Assembly (NCBI GenBank): GCA_024641965.1
Contig: JAHECC010000024.1
Coordinates: 1 to 32,293, forward strand
Reading direction: 5' to 3'
DNA: 32,293 bases
Origin: Rubrivivax sp.
GTDB lineage: Bacteria > Pseudomonadota > Gammaproteobacteria > Burkholderiales > Burkholderiaceae_C
Numbering within the stretch: position 1 is the stretch's first letter; every line of letters starts with the position of its first letter. The position numbers were made by a program, and so were the translations under genes. Positions 6,973 to 16,553 of the stretch are shown one piece after another. Below the pieces are notes generated by a model. It had not been told where the DNA came from. It saw nothing but the letters and a program-made list of their open reading frames with translations, and searched no databases.

Positions 6973-8289
6973 CTACCAACGCAACACGAACAGCGTGATC
7001 GCCGGGAACAGCACCAGCAGCACTACGCGTGCCAGGTCGCTGGCGACAAATGGCATGACGCCCTTGTAGGTCTCTGCGATGGCGATGTCCGGCGCCATCG
7101 ACTTGATGACGAACAGATTCATGCCCACCGGCGGCGTGATCAGCCCGACCTCGACCACGATCAGCACCAGGATGCCGAACCAGATGGCGGTGTGCTCGGG
7201 GCTAAGGCCGAAGTCCAGGCCCGAGATCATCGGGAAGAAGATCGGGATGGTCAACAGGATCATCGACAGCGAATCCATGACACAGCCGAAGATCAGATAG
7301 AAGATCAGGATCGCCCACAACACCGCATAGGGGCTCAGTCCCTGCTCGCCGACCCAGCCGGCCAGTTCCTGCGGCAACTGCGACAGCGCGAGGAAGGTGT
7401 TGTAGGCGGCGGCGCCGAGCACGATCAGGAACACCATCGCCGTGCCGCTGGCAGTGGATTCGAAAGCGCCGAGCAGCTTCTCGCGCGACAGGCCACCACG
7501 CCACCAGGCCAGCACGCCGGTGGCCACGGCGCCGACGGCCGCGCCTTCGGTGGGCGTGAAGATGCCGGTGTAGATGCCGCCGATCACCACCACGAAGATC
7601 AGCAGTACCGGCCACACCGCCAGCAGCGCCGTGATGCGCTCGCTCCACGGCATAGGCTCGAGCCGGCCGGCCAGCGAGGGCTTCAGCCGCACGACGATGG
7701 CGATGACGAGCATGTAGCCCAGCGCCGCCAGGATGCCGGGCACGAAGGCCGCGGCGAACATCTTGGCGATGTTCTGCTCGGCCAGGATGGCGTAGATGAC
7801 GAGCACGATCGACGGCGGGATGAGGATACCCAGCGTGCCGCCGGCGGCCAATGCGCCGGTGGCCAGGCTGCCGGCATAGCCGGCGCGGCGCAGCTCGGGC
7901 AGCGCCACCTGTCCCATCGTCGCCGCAGTGGCCAGCGAGCTGCCGCAGATCGAGCCGAAGCCGGCGCAGGCACCCACCGCCGCCATCGCCACACCACCTT
8001 TGCGATGGCCGAGAAAGGCCTCGGCCGCCTTGAACAGCGCGCGCGACATGCCGCCCAGCGTGGCCAGCTGCCCCATCAACAGGAACAGCGGCACGATCGA
8101 CAACGAATGGGTCGAGAAGGTGCTGTAGCTCAGCGTCTTCATCTGGTTGAGCAGCGGCGCGGCGCTGCCATACACCTGCCACGAGCCGAGCAGCCCCAGC
8201 GTGAGCATCGCCACACCGATGGGCACACGCAGGAAGATCAGCGCCAACAGCACCGGAAAGGACCATGCGGCAAGCCAGAGCGGGTCCAT
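6973..8289 (-). CDS. dctM: TRAP transporter large permease subunit, DctM family
   Basis: The 438-residue protein is highly hydrophobic, with about twelve predicted membrane segments, and has DctM signatures such as RVPIGVAM near the N-terminus, GFGSICGSSLATAATMG, and TLGILIPPSI. The length is normal for the family. It is the sodium-coupled transport subunit in the inner membrane and works with the small subunit DctQ and a periplasmic DctP. ATG 8289 has GGGAG upstream. The gene follows dctQ after 78 bases that contain a GC-rich repeat element, and it precedes the second dctP by 38 bases. The substrate cannot be derived from the permease; aromatic acid uptake is inferred from the lig genes in the same operon. 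Confidence 0.95.
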   Translation of the reverse strand: MDPLWLAAWSFPVLLALIFLRVPIGVAMLTLGLLGSWQVYGSAAPLLNQMKTLSYSTFSTHSLSIVPLFLLMGQLATLGGMSRALFKAAEAFLGHRKGGVAMAAVGACAGFGSICGSSLATAATMGQVALPELRRAGYAGSLATGALAAGGTLGILIPPSIVLVIYAILAEQNIAKMFAAAFVPGILAALGYMLVIAIVVRLKPSLAGRLEPMPWSERITALLAVWPVLLIFVVVIGGIYTGIFTPTEGAAVGAVATGVLAWWRGGLSREKLLGAFESTASGTAMVFLIVLGAAAYNTFLALSQLPQELAGWVGEQGLSPYAVLWAILIFYLIFGCVMDSLSMILLTIPIFFPMISGLDFGLSPEHTAIWFGILVLIVVEVGLITPPVGMNLFVIKSMAPDIAIAETYKGVMPFVASDLARVVLLVLFPAITLFVLRW

Positions 8290-8324
8290 GTCAGTGGCTC
8301 CCGGCCGACAGCAGGCATTGACGA

Positions 8325-8361
8325 ACCCCCTTGGGGAGCAGCGAACGCAGTGAGCGTGGGG
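8325..8361. repeat. GC-rich REP-like intergenic repeat unit
   Basis: Read on the minus strand, the element is CCCCACGCTCACTGCGTTCG followed by CTGCTCCCCAAGGGGGT. It holds a short CCCC-AA-GGGG hairpin next to a second imperfect dyad (CGCTCACTGCG). I recall elements of the form CCCCCACGCTCGCT...GCTGCCCCCC-AAGGGGG as frequent dispersed intergenic repeats in Comamonadaceae and relatives. The element lies between the dctQ stop and the dctM Shine-Dalgarno sequence, so on the operon mRNA it can fold between the two reading frames. Only this one copy was noticed in the window. Confidence 0.6.
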
Positions 8362-8367
8362 ACATCA

Positions 8368-8886
8368 TCAATGAGAACCCTCGGACAGCACGAAACCTTC
8401 GGGCGCACTGGCAAGGCCCAGCGTTTCGAGCAGCCGCCATGCATAGGCGATGCAGCCGATGACCGCCGGCAGCATCGATGCCGCATAACCCCACCACACG
8501 GGCATCTGCAGGATGAAGCTGACCTCGCCGTTGTCGCGGTAGTCGAGCATGGCCACGCCCATGCGCCACACCAGCAGCAGCCACACGAGCAGCATCAACG
8601 CATCGGCCACGACTTCGAGGCGACGCCGCATCGGCTTGGAGAAGCTCTTCCAGAACAGGTCCACCGACGCGTGGCCACGCTTCAGATGGCACCAAGGCAG
8701 GAAACAGAACACCGCGAGCGCGGTGCCGGCCTCGACCAGCTCGAAGTCACCCGGCACCGGGCCCAGCCCGGCGAAGGCAAATGCACGTCCGGCAATGCTG
8801 ATGACACTGATCAACGCCAGTGCAGCCAGCACAAAGGCGCCGAACCAAGCCATCAGCCGGCTCAGACTGTAGATGATGTTGTTCAT
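8368..8886 (-). CDS. dctQ: TRAP transporter small permease subunit, DctQ family
   Basis: This 172-residue membrane protein has the four-helix DctQ layout: hydrophobic segments near residues 10-38, 50-66, 85-110 and 125-148. A conserved-looking central part reads ELVEAGTALAVFCFLPWCHLKRGHASVD-like (only the ends are diagnostic: ELVEAGTA and KRGHASVDL). The ORF track extends far upstream, but the frame there overlaps the end of dctP in another frame, so I take MNNIIYSLSRL at 8886 as the start. Its Shine-Dalgarno sequence is weak. It sits 52 bases after the first dctP and 78 bases before dctM, as expected for a TRAP operon. It is the small inner-membrane subunit needed with DctM for transport. 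Confidence 0.9.
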   Translation of the reverse strand: MNNIIYSLSRLMAWFGAFVLAALALISVISIAGRAFAFAGLGPVPGDFELVEAGTALAVFCFLPWCHLKRGHASVDLFWKSFSKPMRRRLEVVADALMLLVWLLLVWRMGVAMLDYRDNGEVSFILQMPVWWGYAASMLPAVIGCIAYAWRLLETLGLASAPEGFVLSEGSH

Positions 8887-8938
8887 GAGGGACCTGAGCG
8901 CGGCGTGGCCGAAATCGTGCCACGCCTGCGGAGTCGAT

Positions 8939-9970
8939 CTACTTCTTCGAGTACTTCTCGACCAGCGCGCTGGCCTCGGCCGCCAGCTTCTGGCCGTCCA
9001 GTCCCTTGCCTCCCACTTCGGCGTACCAGATGGCGCGCGTGCCGTTGGCGGTGCGCTGCCAGCGTGCCGTCTGCTCCGCATTGAGCGTGACGATGCTGGT
9101 GCCGGACTTGATGGCCAGTGCCTCGCCGACCTTGTCGCCTGCATCCATGGCACGGCCGAACAGCGCCGCGGTCTCGCTGCCGCTGTTGGCGTCGATGACC
9201 TTCTTCAGGTCGGGCGGCAGCCTGTCGTAGGCTGACCTGTTCATGGCCACCGCGAAGGTCTGTGTGTACAGGCCCTTGCTGCCGGTAAAGCCGGTGGCGT
9301 TCTTGACGATCTGCTGCACCTTCAGCGCCGGCACCACCTCCCACGGAATGGTGGTGGCCGAAATCACCCCCTTGGACAAGGCCTCGCTTACCGCCGGCAC
9401 CGGCATGCCCACCGGCGTGGCGCCGAGTTGTTCGAGCATGATGTTGACGACGCGTGAACCACCGCGCACCTTCATGCCCTTCAGGTCCTCGAGCTTGGTG
9501 ATCGGGTCCTTGCTGTGGAACAGCCCCGGGCCGTGCACATGCACCGCGATCAGCTTGACGTCCTTGAATTCGTCCATCGCGAACTTCTCGACGTACTCCT
9601 GGAAGGCGCGTGACCCAGGTTCGGCCAGCCCCGTCGTGAAGGGCAGCTCGAAGGCCTCGGTCTTCGGGAAGCGACCCGGCGTGTAGCCCAGCACGGTCCA
9701 GACGATGTCCACCACGCCGTCCTTGGCCTGGTCGAAAAGCTCAGGCGGCCTGCCGCCCAACTGCATGGTCGGGAACTGTTGTACCTTGATGCGCCCGCCG
9801 CTGTCCTTCTCGACCTTCGCGGCCCAGGGCTTGATGGCCTTGTCCGGAATCGTCGCCTGCGGCGGCAGGAACTGGTGGAAACGCAGCGTCACGTCGGCCG
9901 CCAGCGCCGGTTGGGAGGCCGCTGCGACCAGCAGGCCCGCTGCGAGAAGGCAGCTCTGGAAGGATTTCAT
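8939..9970 (-). CDS. dctP: TRAP transporter substrate-binding protein, DctP family (first copy)
   Basis: The 343-residue protein has a signal peptide (MKSFQSCLLAAGLL..., cleavage after PALA) and the mature start ADVTLRFHQFLPPQAT. It contains the DctP arginine motif VRGGSRVVNIMLEQLGA and the conserved KGVISATTIPWEVVPALK. The ATG at 9970 has GGGAG upstream; the longer ORF-track start would put eleven polar residues in front of the signal peptide. The gene begins 29 bases after ligC on the same strand, which ties the transporter to the protocatechuate operon. It differs from its paralogue at 5906-6934 mostly in the C-terminal third, where ligand-selective differences could lie. The likely ligand is an aromatic or related carboxylate (inference from context). 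Confidence 0.93.
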   Translation of the reverse strand: MKSFQSCLLAAGLLVAAASQPALAADVTLRFHQFLPPQATIPDKAIKPWAAKVEKDSGGRIKVQQFPTMQLGGRPPELFDQAKDGVVDIVWTVLGYTPGRFPKTEAFELPFTTGLAEPGSRAFQEYVEKFAMDEFKDVKLIAVHVHGPGLFHSKDPITKLEDLKGMKVRGGSRVVNIMLEQLGATPVGMPVPAVSEALSKGVISATTIPWEVVPALKVQQIVKNATGFTGSKGLYTQTFAVAMNRSAYDRLPPDLKKVIDANSGSETAALFGRAMDAGDKVGEALAIKSGTSIVTLNAEQTARWQRTANGTRAIWYAEVGGKGLDGQKLAAEASALVEKYSKK

Positions 9971-9999: not shown

Positions 10000-12258
<2,259 letters not shown>

Positions 12259-12261
12259 TGT

Positions 12262-13179
12262 TCAGACCTCCTCTGGCCAGTACAGGCGCATCGGGTTGTC
12301 CACCAGCAGTTTCTTCTGCAGCTCCGGCGTGGTGGCGATGTGCGCAATGAAATCGACCAGCAGCCCGTCGTCGGGCATGTGGTCCTTCAGGTTCGGGTGC
12401 GGCCAGTCCGTGCCCCATAACACGCGGTCGGGGAAGGTTTCGACAATGCGCCGCGCAAAAGGCACCACGTCGCGATAGGCCTGCTGTTCGCCATCGAGCG
12501 CCTTCGGGCCGGTGAGGGACAGCCGCTCCGGGCAACTGACCTTGCTCCACACGTTGCCGTGTTCGCGCATGAACTTCACGAACAGCTCGAACTGCGGCCC
12601 GTCCACCGGCAGGCTGACATCGGGGCGACCCATGTGGTCGACCACCACCGTCGTCGGCAGCGCAGTGAAGAAGTCCCAAAGCTCGGGTAGATCCACCGCC
12701 TCGAAATAGATCACCACGTGCCAGCCCAGCGGGGCGATGCGCGTGGCAATGTCCATCAGCTCGTCCTTCGGCGTGAAGTCCACCAAACGCTTGACGAAGT
12801 TGAAGCGCACGCCACGCACGCCTGCGGCGTGCAATTGGCGAAGGTCGTCGTCGGTGACCGTGCGGCGCAGCGTGGCCACGCCCCGCGCAAGACCGTTGGA
12901 TGAGCGGCAGGCGTCGATCATGGCTCGGTTGTCGGCACCGTGGCAGGTGGCCTGCACGATGACGTTGCGCGCGAAGCCGAGATGGTCGCGCAACGCAAAC
13001 AACTGCTGCTTCGACGCATCGCAAGGCGTGTACTTGCGCTCGGGCGCAAAGGGAAATTCGGCGCCAGGTCCGAAGACATGGCAATGTGCATCGACGCTGC
13101 CGGGCGGCAGCACGAAGCGCGGCTTGCTCGGACCTGCGTACCAATCGAGCCAGCCAGGGGTCTTGGTGAATTCCATCAT
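12262..13179 (-). CDS. ligI: 2-pyrone-4,6-dicarboxylate lactonase (LigI)
   Basis: The 305-residue protein belongs to the amidohydrolase superfamily and has the LigI pattern. H32 and H34 are in VDAHCHVFGP, H182 in VVDHMGRPD, and the catalytic aspartate D258 in LWGTDWPHPN; in Sphingobium LigI the corresponding residues are, as I recall, H31, H33, H180 and D248. The family is unusual in not needing a metal. It hydrolyses 2-pyrone-4,6-dicarboxylate to 4-oxalomesaconate, the step after LigC. Two consecutive ATGs mark the start (13179/13176), seven bases after the DUF1932 gene, with GAGAG upstream. The next gene, ligA, starts three bases after the stop. Confidence 0.95.
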   Translation of the reverse strand: MMEFTKTPGWLDWYAGPSKPRFVLPPGSVDAHCHVFGPGAEFPFAPERKYTPCDASKQQLFALRDHLGFARNVIVQATCHGADNRAMIDACRSSNGLARGVATLRRTVTDDDLRQLHAAGVRGVRFNFVKRLVDFTPKDELMDIATRIAPLGWHVVIYFEAVDLPELWDFFTALPTTVVVDHMGRPDVSLPVDGPQFELFVKFMREHGNVWSKVSCPERLSLTGPKALDGEQQAYRDVVPFARRIVETFPDRVLWGTDWPHPNLKDHMPDDGLLVDFIAHIATTPELQKKLLVDNPMRLYWPEEV

Positions 13180-13186
13180 TTCGCTC

Positions 13187-14110
13187 TCAGCGATTCGGCA
13201 GCACGCTGGCGAGAATGCGGTCGGCCTCGGTGCGCCAGTCGGGGCTGTGCGCGAATTCGGCGTCGCCGCGCAGGCCGAACAGCCCCGCGTCGGCCAGATC
13301 GGCCATCCAGGCCTGGCGCTCTGCCGTGCCGGCGGCGGACCAGGGTGTCAGGCCGATCTCGCGCACGGTCTCGGCCACCTCGCGCACTTCCTCGCTGCGG
13401 CGCCGGCCATGCTCGATGACGCGCTGGAAGAAGTAGGCGCCCTGCTTCTCCCAGTCGATGCCGGGAAAGGTCTCCTTCAGCGAGGCCAGCACTGCGCCTT
13501 CGACGCCATAGGCGCGTGCGGCCGTGAAGCTTTCGATGACCATCGCCTCCAGGCCCTTGATCATCACGCTGCGGCACATCTTCGTGGCGCTGGCCACGCC
13601 CAGCTTGTCGGAGACGACCTTGGCCTCGAAACCCAGCGCCGCCAAACCCGGTTGCAGGCGCTGCGCGTCCACACCGCCCAGCAACAGCGGCACACGCAGG
13701 CGGTAGGGCGGTATCGAGGTCATGACCGCGGCTTCGACGAAGACCGTCCCGCCAGCCTCCACGGCCGCCGCAGCACGCAGCTTGGCACCCGGCGAGGCAG
13801 AGTTGAAGTCGAGGTACCAGGCCAGCGGTCGCAGCCCCGGCGCGCAGGCATGGGCCACGGCCACCGTCTGGCTGGCAGTCACGGCGGAGATCACCAGGTC
13901 CGACGCGGCGGCCAGTTCGGCATGCGAGGCGGCCAACACCACCCCATGTGCTGTTGCGTGCTCGCGAAGCGGCGCGGCGCGATCGTCGTCGAGCTTCAGG
14001 TCATAAGCCCGCACCGCGACGCCGCGTGCGCGCAGGTCCTCGGCCAGGATGCGGCCGACCTCGCCGTAGCCGACCAGGCCTACCTGCCAAAGCATGGGAT
14101 CGTCGTTCAT
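13187..14110 (-). CDS. NAD(P)-dependent oxidoreductase, 6-phosphogluconate dehydrogenase-like with DUF1932 domain
   Basis: The 307-residue protein has an N-terminal Rossmann fold (GLVGYGEVGRILA, glycines 14/16/19) like beta-hydroxyacid dehydrogenases. A C-terminal helical part of the DUF1932 type follows, with the candidate catalytic lysine K177 in GVASATKMCRS. I chose MNDDPMLWQVG at 14110, two bases after the ligK stop; a second ATG at 14095 (MLWQVGLVGYG) is equally compatible with the fold and neither has a strong Shine-Dalgarno. The gene is locked between ligK and ligI, so a role in protocatechuate or related aromatic catabolism is likely. Its reaction is not known to me. It is not homologous to the PrpF-type tautomerase LigU, so I do not assign that step to it. 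Confidence 0.85.
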   Translation of the reverse strand: MNDDPMLWQVGLVGYGEVGRILAEDLRARGVAVRAYDLKLDDDRAAPLREHATAHGVVLAASHAELAAASDLVISAVTASQTVAVAHACAPGLRPLAWYLDFNSASPGAKLRAAAAVEAGGTVFVEAAVMTSIPPYRLRVPLLLGGVDAQRLQPGLAALGFEAKVVSDKLGVASATKMCRSVMIKGLEAMVIESFTAARAYGVEGAVLASLKETFPGIDWEKQGAYFFQRVIEHGRRRSEEVREVAETVREIGLTPWSAAGTAERQAWMADLADAGLFGLRGDAEFAHSPDWRTEADRILASVLPNR

Positions 14111-14112
14111 GG

Positions 14113-14796
14113 TCAGTCGATGTACTTCAGGCCGGCCTTCTCGAGCGGGCCGCGCATGTCGTACATGTCCAAGCCCAGTACGCCAGCGGCAAGCTTGGCA
14201 CGCTTGGCGGCTTCGTTCGCCTCGCGCGCGGCGGCCGCGTCGGCCACCTTCATCGCCATCGCCGCGGGCACGACGACGACGCCATCGTCGTCGGCGACGA
14301 CCACGTCGCCGGGGTTGACCTCGGCACCGGCGCAGACCACGCGCACGTTGACCGAGCCGAGCGTGGCCTTGATCGTGCCCTTGGCGCTGATGGCCTTGCT
14401 CCACACCGGGAAGCCCATCGCCGTCAGGTCCTTGACGTCGCGACAGCCGCCGTCGATGACCAGGCCGAGCGCACCACGCGCGCGGAAGGAGGTGGCCAGC
14501 AGGTCGCCGAAGAAGCCGTCGCTGTTGTCCGCCGTGCAGGCCGCGACGACCACGTCACCGGGCTGCAATTGTTCGGCAGCGACATGCATCATCCAGTTGT
14601 CGCCCGGGTGCAGCAGCACCGTGACCGCCGTTCCGCAAAGGTGCGCGCCAGTGTAGATCGGCCGCATGTAGGGCTGCATCAGGCCGACACGGCCCATCGC
14701 CTCGTGCACGGTGGCGGCGCCGAAGGCCGCAAGTTTGCCCACCGCCGCCGGATCGGCGCGAACGATGTTGCGTTTGACGATGCCAAGTTGATACAC
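14113..14796 (-). CDS. ligK: 4-carboxy-4-hydroxy-2-oxoadipate aldolase (LigK/HMG-CHA aldolase)
   Basis: No ATG fits the family N-terminus, so I take the GTG at 14796 ([15 protein letters not shown]), which has GGGAG six bases upstream and starts one base after the ligJ stop. The 227-residue product matches the usual LigK length of about 228. Family motifs are [13 protein letters not shown] near the start and [12 protein letters not shown], whose R119/D120 correspond to the Arg-Asp pair in class II HMG/CHA aldolases. The fold is shared with RraA. It is a cytosolic, divalent-metal-dependent class II aldolase that splits 4-carboxy-4-hydroxy-2-oxoadipate to pyruvate and oxaloacetate, the last pathway step. 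The ORF-track extension to 14967 overlaps the end of ligJ and is a shadow. Confidence 0.93.
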
Positions 14797-14797
14797 C

Positions 14798-15826
14798 TCA
14801 GACTCCCTTCGCCTTGAGCGCCCGGTCGAGGCGCGGAAACACGCGGCGCGCGTTGCCTTCATAGACCTTGTGCCGGTCGTCGCCGACGACGATGGTCGAT
14901 GCCTCGATGTAGCGCTTGGTGTCGTCGTAGTAGTTTCCGGTCTCGGGGTCGATGCCACGCACCGCACCGATCATCTCGCTGGCAAAGAGGATGTTATCGA
15001 CCGGGATCACGGTGGTCAGCAGGTCGATACCCGGTTGGTGGTAGACGCAGGTGTCGAAGAAGATGTTGTTCAGCAGGTGGTCCTTGAGCAGCGGCTTCTT
15101 CAGTTCCTGCGCCAAACCGCGGAAGCGCCCCCAGTGGTAGGGCACCGCGCCGCCGCCGTGCGGGATGATGAACTTCAGCGCCGGAAAGTCCTTGAACAGG
15201 TCGCTGGTCAGGCACTGCATGAACGCCGTGGTGTCGGCGTTCAGGTAGTGCGCGCCGGTGGTGTGGAAGCAGGCGTTGCAGCTGGTACTGACGTGGATCA
15301 TCGCCGGAATGTCCAGCTCGACCATCTTCTCGTAGATCGGGTACCAGTGGCGGTCGCTCAGCGGCGGGCTGGTCCAGTGTCCGCCGGAGGGGTCGGGGTT
15401 GAGGTTGATGCCGACATTGCCGTATTGGTTGACGCATTTCTCCAGCTCGGCGATACAGGACTTGGGGTCCACGCCCGGGCTTTGCGGCAGCATCGCCGCG
15501 GGGATGAAATGGTCGGGAAAGAGCTGCGACACGCGGTAGCACAGCTCGTTGCAGATCGCCGCCCAGGTGCTGCTGACCTCGAAGTCACCGATATGGTGCG
15601 CCATGAAGCTGGCGCGCGGGCTGAAGATCGTCAGGTCGCTGCCGCGCTCCTTCATCAGCCGCAGCTGGTTCGATTCGATCGATTCGCGCAACTCGTCGTC
15701 GCTGATCTTCAGCTCCGACACCTTGGGCATCTGCGCCGCATCGGCGATGCCGGCGATCTGGCGGTTGCGCCAGTTTTCCAGCGCCTTCGGTGCGGTGGTG
15801 TAGTGGCCGTGGCAGTCGATGATCAT
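14798..15826 (-). CDS. ligJ: 4-oxalomesaconate hydratase (LigJ)
   Basis: The 342-residue protein is an amidohydrolase-superfamily hydratase. Residues expected at the metal site are in place: H6 and H8 ([11 protein letters not shown]), H178 (AMIHVSTSC), H223 ([12 protein letters not shown]) and E284 ([12 protein letters not shown]). The spacing agrees with what I recall of characterised LigJ enzymes, including the acidic ligand near 284. It adds water to the enol form of 4-oxalomesaconate to give 4-carboxy-4-hydroxy-2-oxoadipate. The start ATG at 15826 has AAGGA nine bases upstream, so the longer ORF-track start is rejected. It follows the ModA-like gene by 25 bases and precedes ligK by one base. 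Confidence 0.95.
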
Positions 15827-15851: not shown

Positions 15852-16553
15852 TCATGCCGGCGCCATGCCGTGGCGGCGCTTGGCCTCGTCGGCGGCGGCC
15901 GAGCGTAGAAATTGCAGCAGCATGCGCACCGCGTCGCCCTGCCTCGATGCCGTGCAAAGGCCGGCCGAGAACGTGGTGACGATCTGCGCGCCTTCGGGCA
16001 TCGGGCCAAGAACGTCGATGCCGTCCAGGTGCATCAGCTCGCTCAGTTGCTGGAAGCCGATCTCGACCTGGCCTGAAGCCACCATGGCGCCCACCGGCAC
16101 ACCCGGCGGCGCCTGCCGCGTGCGTTCGCGTAGCCTGTCCGCAATGCCCCAGCGTTCGAACAGCGCCAGCAGCGCGGTGCCGCTCGGCCCGGTGGAGTAG
16201 CCGATGGACTGCGCGCGCAACAGCGTGTCGCGCAGCGCCGCCACCGATGCGATGTCCGGCCGCGCCGCACCGGCGCGCACGGCGATCGCGACACCCGAGC
16301 GCACCAGGTCCACCTTGCTGCCGGCGACCACATGGCCCTCGGCTTCGAGCTTGTCGATTGCGTCAGCCGCCAGCACCACCAGGTCGAAGGCCTCGCCAGA
16401 CGCGACACGCCGCGCCGCGTCGACACCGCCCACCGACTCGAACTCGACCTTGACCGCACCCGACACACCGCCCTGCCCGCGCCAGGCCTCAACCAACTCG
16501 GCCAACACCAGGCGGGTGGCCATAGAGGAGATTCCGTGCAGGCTTCGATTCAT
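15852..16553 (-). CDS. ModA-like substrate-binding domain protein without signal peptide
   Basis: The 233-residue protein has the layout of molybdate-type periplasmic binding proteins. The first strand reads LHGISSMATRLVLAELVEAW, followed by FESVGGVDAARRVASGEAFDLVVLAADAID, a SGVAIAVR segment, SIGYSTGPSGTALLALFERWG and GAMVASGQVEIGFQQLSEL. In the second half VLGPMPEGAQIVTTFSAGL is typical of the group. Unlike transporter receptors it has no signal peptide: the first beta-strand begins at residue 5, and the frame upstream gives no leader. It should therefore be cytoplasmic. It is the first gene of the lig operon, directly after the predicted promoter and 25 bases before ligJ. A role as a soluble ligand-binding or sensing protein is possible; the function is unknown. 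Confidence 0.8.
   Translation of the reverse strand: MNRSLHGISSMATRLVLAELVEAWRGQGGVSGAVKVEFESVGGVDAARRVASGEAFDLVVLAADAIDKLEAEGHVVAGSKVDLVRSGVAIAVRAGAARPDIASVAALRDTLLRAQSIGYSTGPSGTALLALFERWGIADRLRERTRQAPPGVPVGAMVASGQVEIGFQQLSELMHLDGIDVLGPMPEGAQIVTTFSAGLCTASRQGDAVRMLLQFLRSAAADEAKRRHGMAPA

Follow-up and report, generated by a model that had tools for sequence, protein, structure and literature searches.

A gene for a DUF1932 protein lies between ligK and ligI in this protocatechuate 4,5-cleavage operon, and no ligU accompanies it. The locus raises two questions: what the DUF1932 protein does, and which protein carries out the 4-oxalomesaconate (OMA) tautomerase step of LigU. Among the routes that take up aromatics from lignin, the protocatechuate-4,5 pathway is a main one, and it also supplies PDC, a polymer precursor; many of its clusters nevertheless come without the LigU step.

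Operon layout and the LigU step

The window, meaning the whole stretch of 32,293 nucleotides that was analysed, is contig C117 of a 4.42 Mb genome assembled in 342 contigs (97.3% complete). Its pathway genes form a tightly packed minus-strand operon in the order SBP_bac_11 gene, ligJ, ligK, DUF1932 gene, ligI, ligA, ligB, ligC and TRAP DctPQM, with the following features:

15852..16553, minus strand: SBPcyt, a cytosolic ModA-like (SBP_bac_11) protein of 233 aa, N-terminus MNRSLHGISSMATR (PF13531, 149 bits)
14798..15826, minus strand: ligJ, KCH/4-oxalomesaconate hydratase, amidohydrolase type (PF04909, operon position)
14113..14796, minus strand: ligK, CHA aldolase/oxaloacetate decarboxylase (TIGR02798, 405 bits, cut-off 304.5)
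13187..14110, minus strand: DUF1932 NAD-binding beta-hydroxyacid-dehydrogenase-like protein, 307 aa (PF09130, PF03446, AlphaFold2 model, nearest folds)
12262..13179, minus strand: ligI, 2-pyrone-4,6-dicarboxylate hydrolase (PF04909, 209 bits; synteny)
11821..12258, minus strand: ligA, protocatechuate 4,5-dioxygenase alpha subunit (TIGR02792, 226 bits)
10953..11819, minus strand: ligB, protocatechuate 4,5-dioxygenase beta subunit (PF02900, 275 bits; NF009903, 584 bits)
10000..10956, minus strand: ligC, CHMS dehydrogenase of the Gfo/Idh/MocA type (PF19858, 311 bits; PF01408, 85 bits; position)
8939..9970, minus strand: TRAP transporter DctP (PF03480, 133 bits)
6973..8940, minus strand: TRAP transporter DctQ and DctM genes (PF04290, 66 bits; PF06808, 306 bits)

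The ligJ product is 83-92% identical to LigJ of pmd/lig clusters, ligI is syntenic and 71-88% identical in sister operons, and ligK begins with a GTG codon, as read from the sequence. A divergent second LigA-LigB pair (35-45% identity) is often present near the lig operon in relatives, at nine named loci and others. Elsewhere in the genome, positions 975-1088 of contig C332 hold a remnant that resembles the N-terminus of LigI (59% over 37 residues, after which similarity ends) and shares its strand with a gene for a pobA-like 4-hydroxybenzoate hydroxylase. The remnant appears to be either what is left of a second ligI or a junction in the assembly; at about 25-30 codons near the pobA-like gene, it was rejected as a second ligI.

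An earlier reading of this DNA, made from the sequence only, had reported that the window holds no LigU homologue, and our search likewise found no LigU/PrpF gene there. Its proposal that LigU might be encoded elsewhere in the genome was not borne out, since a whole-genome PrpF/LigU search detected no LigU in the assembly (97% complete) and a single PrpF-family gene, on contig C161. This gene scores 667 bits against TIGR02334 (prpF; cut-off 441) and 283 bits against NF033377 (OMA tautomerase; cut-off 440), and its closest PDB structures are methylaconitate isomerases, with LigU (6P3H/J/K) far behind. By the NCBIfam cut-offs and the PDB ranking it is a true PrpF, and was rejected as a hidden LigU; it may act as a moonlighting tautomerase. 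On C161 (220-2288) the gene next after prpF belongs to the PEP-mutase/isocitrate-lyase family and scores 268 bits, below the prpB cut-off of 354. Seven further genomes, G028 among them, gave no PrpF-family match at the thresholds used.

The sequence-only reading had also taken the ligK-ligI slot as the expected place of LigU, citing the order ligK-ligU-ligI of SYK-6. SYK-6 does possess a ligKUI operon (PMC6888825), but the expectation was not confirmed for the operon type of the window. SYK-6-type sphingomonad loci (two plasmids and nine genomes) carry ligK-ligU-ligI or ligK-ligU divergent from DUF1932-ligJ-ligA-ligB-ligC, so that LigU and DUF1932 are both present; at one of them, L317, ligI is part of the ligJ half of the locus. 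Where Burkholderiales and several Alphaproteobacteria have LigU in the operon, it sits 5' of ligJ, and many of these operons have DUF1932 between ligK and ligI as well; in such Burkholderiales, ligK and ligI have either nothing or this same DUF1932 gene between them. Within this part of the sphingomonad clusters, a DUF2218 gene was observed between ligJ and ligA in Sphingobium CAP-1 (L243, 9014-9310) and on several Sphingobium plasmids.

The DUF1932 protein and its predicted place in the pathway

The Rossmann/DUF1932 protein described between ligK and ligI is encoded by an intact frame running from ATG to TGA, which starts 2 nt past the ligK stop, ends 7 nt ahead of the ligI start and is the only DUF1932 gene of the genome. 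It matches PF09130 (DUF1932; 64.8 bits, cut-off 25) and PF03446 (NAD_binding_2; 37.1 bits, cut-off 21); its remaining profile matches are to other Rossmann families, with none to the PrpF superfamily (PF04303 or NF033377). The AlphaFold2 model (pLDDT 97.1) has as nearest folds 4EZB, 3QSG and 1I36, all three of unknown function, followed by beta-hydroxyacid dehydrogenases. In the literature collection that we searched, no paper dealt with the function of DUF1932.

The protein contains a GxGxxG Rossmann motif and an Asp37 after strand 2, the latter indicating NAD preference. Across 20 homologues, G14, G16, D37 and K177 are invariant and G19 almost so, and Lys177, a catalytic-type lysine, stands at the start of the long inter-domain helix (residues 172-201) of the model. 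R180, S181, R230, H234, R237 and R238 are likewise invariant and make up a positive set where a polycarboxylate could sit. The combination of a Rossmann and an all-helical domain, the lysine and the overall fold are shared with the dehydrogenases of 3-hydroxyisobutyrate, tartronate semialdehyde and gamma-hydroxybutyrate. In contrast to these characterised enzymes, the protein has Arg180-Ser181 where they have Asn-Asn after the lysine, carries VEAAVMTS in place of their DAPVSGG-type glycine-rich substrate loop, and groups with the DUF1932 branch (4EZB, 3QSG, 1I36) apart from them.

Because the genome is without LigU and the gene occupies the ligK-ligI position, as its counterparts do in the majority of DUF1932 loci of this kind (45), the Rossmann protein might itself isomerise OMA, a replacement that the sequence-only reading had implied. 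A substitute would be expected to exclude LigU, and the two instead coexist. Among 108 non-redundant ligJ+ligK loci, DUF1932 is found in the same cluster as LigU at 29 of 42 LigU loci, SYK-6-type clusters included, and at 33 of the 47 loci with SBPcyt and without LigU; DUF1932 served as bait in fetching 80 loci, which inflates both shares. The unbaited order sample gave 3/8 genomes with LigU and 6/12 without (Fisher p = 0.67), so that DUF1932 proved equally common with and without LigU. Moreover, four genomes (G109, G208, G189, G124) hold full ligIJKABC clusters with SBPcyt that have neither LigU nor DUF1932. We rejected the DUF1932 protein as a LigU substitute on this co-occurrence and regard such a role as highly improbable. 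DUF1932 is a common optional member of these clusters, independent of the type of tautomerase.

The earlier idea that the dehydrogenase handles a related intermediate holds in part: a role on a neighbouring intermediate is plausible, and CHMS and PDC are disfavoured. As a predicted NAD enzyme adjoining ligI, the protein could in principle be an alternative CHMS dehydrogenase or a PDC-related enzyme. However, the operon already has a ligC, and homologues, though no more than 39-50% identical to the window's protein, sit in gallate clusters of Klebsiella (which carries GalA), Sodalis, P. oryzihabitans and B. pyrrocinia. Since these clusters have no CHMS or PDC steps, CHMS and PDC are unlikely substrates, and we consider this assignment improbable.

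The gallate-cluster occurrences, together with the neighbours most often found beside DUF1932 in the 108-locus set (ligK and ligI, between which it lies in 45 loci, the window type included), place the protein on the OMA-KCH-CHA trunk. It is plausibly an accessory NAD-dependent enzyme of the beta-hydroxyacid-dehydrogenase type, predicted to serve the route OMA to KCH to CHA to pyruvate plus oxaloacetate that the protocatechuate-4,5 and gallate pathways have in common. Such an enzyme would most likely oxidise or reduce a tricarboxylic hydroxy or oxo acid, either CHA itself or a close neighbour, for instance to rescue CHA or OMA that has been reduced to a dead-end product; the substrate named here is a guess. 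This result corrects a wrong expectation about the protein's role and draws attention to an uncharacterised dehydrogenase that is widespread and linked with the OMA-CHA trunk.

In Bradyrhizobium (nine named loci and others), clusters with a DUF1932 protein 71-74% identical to the window's also encode a LigI-like amidohydrolase, a dicarboxylate symporter, GalB, LigK and a 4,5-dihydroxyphthalate-decarboxylase-like protein, with no LigU/GalD or SBPcyt nearby. They form a variant that is possibly entered from a phthalate-like acid.

A cytosolic ModA-like family and its relation to LigU

The likeliest answer to the missing LigU step was passed over by the sequence-only reading: the ModA-like gene at 15852-16553 lies directly 5' of ligJ, the place that LigU holds in sister operons, and is never found with LigU at a locus. 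We define SBPcyt as the ModA-like subfamily that lacks a signal peptide and has the motif ISSMATR in its N-terminal part. The 60 unique homologues with the motif all begin 1-23 residues ahead of it, and none has a signal peptide; related proteins without the motif often do. The DctP of the same operon, used as a control, has a signal peptide (hydropathy 2.54). Other invariant motifs of the subfamily are STGPSG, GGV and QQ..E, and S10, S124, Q168, Q169 and E172 are among its invariant residues.

The SBPcyt model (pLDDT 96.2) has the ModA fold, with Foldseek matches to 4KD5 and 1WOD and a TM-score of up to 0.85. Proteins with the ModA fold are usually oxyanion binders that serve transport. Given this fold and the Pfam SBP_bac_11 match, SBPcyt could be a transport receptor or molybdate-binding protein whose start is misplaced or which is secreted by another route. 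The 60 homologues without signal peptide speak against this, as does the window, where no ABC permease or ATPase gene adjoins SBPcyt. Sequence identity to ModA is 14-19%, and a profile alignment at this level, of moderate certainty, places Ala12, Gly43 and Gln169 of SBPcyt at the ModA ligand residues Ser12, Ser39 and Tyr170, so that the oxyanion ligands are replaced. The NCBIfam modA score of 23.4 bits is far under the cut-off of 62.5, and unlike ModA the subfamily is embedded in ligJ clusters. A transport or molybdate function is accordingly hard to credit.

SBPcyt instead shares the genomic role of LigU/GalD (PrpF superfamily, NF033377), standing 5' of ligJ in protocatechuate clusters or beside ligK in gallate clusters, with LigU/GalD absent. 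The proteins themselves are dissimilar: LigU/GalD have the PrpF fold and about 360 aa, whereas SBPcyt has a type-2 periplasmic-binding fold and about 230 aa.

To compare the distribution of the two families, we used the 108 non-redundant ligJ+ligK loci, whose sampling was partly baited: LigU is present at 42, SBPcyt at 47, both at 0 and neither at 19. Among these 19, 11 have SBPcyt elsewhere in the genome, L141 has a truncated SBPcyt copy at a contig edge, and L238 is cut off by the end of a plasmid; the genomes of L049 and L163 contain neither gene, and four were judged at the locus only. The order sample of 20 ligI genomes yielded 8 with LigU, 11 with SBPcyt, one with neither and none with both (p = 7e-5). 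A separately drawn phylum sample (398 genomes, 40 of them with ligJ), some of whose genomes are common to the order sample, yielded 20 with LigU, 13 with SBPcyt and none with both (Fisher p = 1.3e-5). Furthermore, SBPcyt was found in 0 of 15 genomes with a cluster LigU that could be reached from named contigs.

A tree of 78 LigJ proteins shows 11-12 changes of state between LigU and SBPcyt, at least 6 of which are forced by supported branches. All six supported independent pairs are opposite in state (p = 0.031), so that phylogenetically corrected support for the exclusion is modest.

NF033377 genes unlinked to the cluster score over the cut-off in seven SBPcyt genomes. They form a separate group with a mean of about 47% identity to cluster LigU, and E. 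coli also matches NF033377. This LigU-like clade was seen at twelve loci, several of its members passing the NF033377 cut-off, and in the three contexts read (L224-L226) its neighbours are tripartite-tricarboxylate SBPs and a LysR gene, with no ligJ. It probably represents another tricarboxylate isomerase mislabelled as OMA tautomerase.

Gallate operons provide a second line of evidence. GalA-(MFS)-LigJ-LigK-SBPcyt operons occur in Burkholderia multivorans, Caballeronia, B. pyrrocinia and two further genomes (G162 and G534) and contain no GalD, so that the tautomerase is the sole step without an assigned enzyme. SBPcyt with ligJ/ligK also recurs on plasmids of Streptomyces, Methylobacterium and Sphaerotilus.

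Pseudarthrobacter phenanthrenivorans Sphe3 grows on protocatechuate, which induces pcaA, and its pathway genes form one transcriptional unit with no ligU listed and with pcaT annotated as an ABC-type molybdate transport system (PMC8431788). In our comparison, Sphe3 pcaT is a member of SBPcyt, with 43% identity and the ISSMATR motif. As in the window, SBPcyt is thus part of a protocatechuate-4,5 operon without ligU; it lies at the 3' end of the Sphe3 operon, whereas in the window it is 5' of ligJ. Growth of Sphe3 alone is no proof of function, since this strain also has a 3,4-cleavage route.

Proposed tautomerase and related proteins

The mutual exclusion with LigU, the gallate operons without a tautomerase and the recurrent swaps on the LigJ tree single out SBPcyt as a strong candidate for the 4-oxalomesaconate tautomerase, one not orthologous to LigU, a proposal drawn from genomic comparison. 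The two-lobed cleft of SBPcyt would take up OMA, a tricarboxylate, and a shift of the double bond there would yield KCH for LigJ. On balance we favour a putative cytosolic ModA-fold family of 1,3-allylic OMA isomerases that would have swapped repeatedly with LigU and would serve pathways of the LigJ type, for protocatechuate and for gallate, in many Burkholderiales as well as some Alphaproteobacteria and Actinobacteria.

The main competing explanation is that OMA tautomerises spontaneously or through LigJ, SBPcyt being an accessory binding protein or sensor whose exclusion of LigU is historical. Genomes G028 and G253 hold a lig cluster with neither LigU nor SBPcyt in the genome, which leaves room for spontaneous tautomerisation or a third enzyme, and by NMR the related product of ring cleavage undergoes rapid keto-enol exchange (PMC8431788). 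Spontaneous chemistry does not, however, predict SBPcyt wherever LigU is missing, over repeated swaps. In addition, LigU is reported as a 1,3-allylic isomerase and not a simple keto-enol tautomerase (Hogancamp and Raushel 2018, cited in PMC6888825 and PMC12314914). We regard the spontaneous or LigJ-dependent route as a real but unlikely alternative.

We therefore prefer a joint explanation, to which we assign a probability of roughly 0.6: the DUF1932 protein would be an optional trunk enzyme and not a substitute for LigU, and the LigU step would be performed by SBPcyt, both catalytic activities being what we infer from gene order, distribution and fold. If SBPcyt is indeed the isomerase, many proteins now mis-annotated as "molybdate-binding" would acquire a function, pathway models that rely on gap-filling would be completed, and the periplasmic-binding fold would gain a new chemistry.

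A possible precedent for a cytosolic SBP-like enzyme in related clusters comes, by analogy, from Bradyrhizobium, where the gene between ligK and the 71-74% identical DUF1932 encodes a homologue of 4,5-dihydroxyphthalate decarboxylase (9JP7), an enzyme that presumably shares the periplasmic-binding fold. Like SBPcyt, this homologue (L112) is without a signal peptide, and it has a weak NMT1/substrate-binding Pfam match; between the 9JP7 family and SBPcyt we found no detectable sequence relation. Other SBP_bac_11 subfamilies apparently without a signal peptide were observed at four loci (L200, L206, L208, L212), and further cytosolic ModA-fold proteins may therefore exist.
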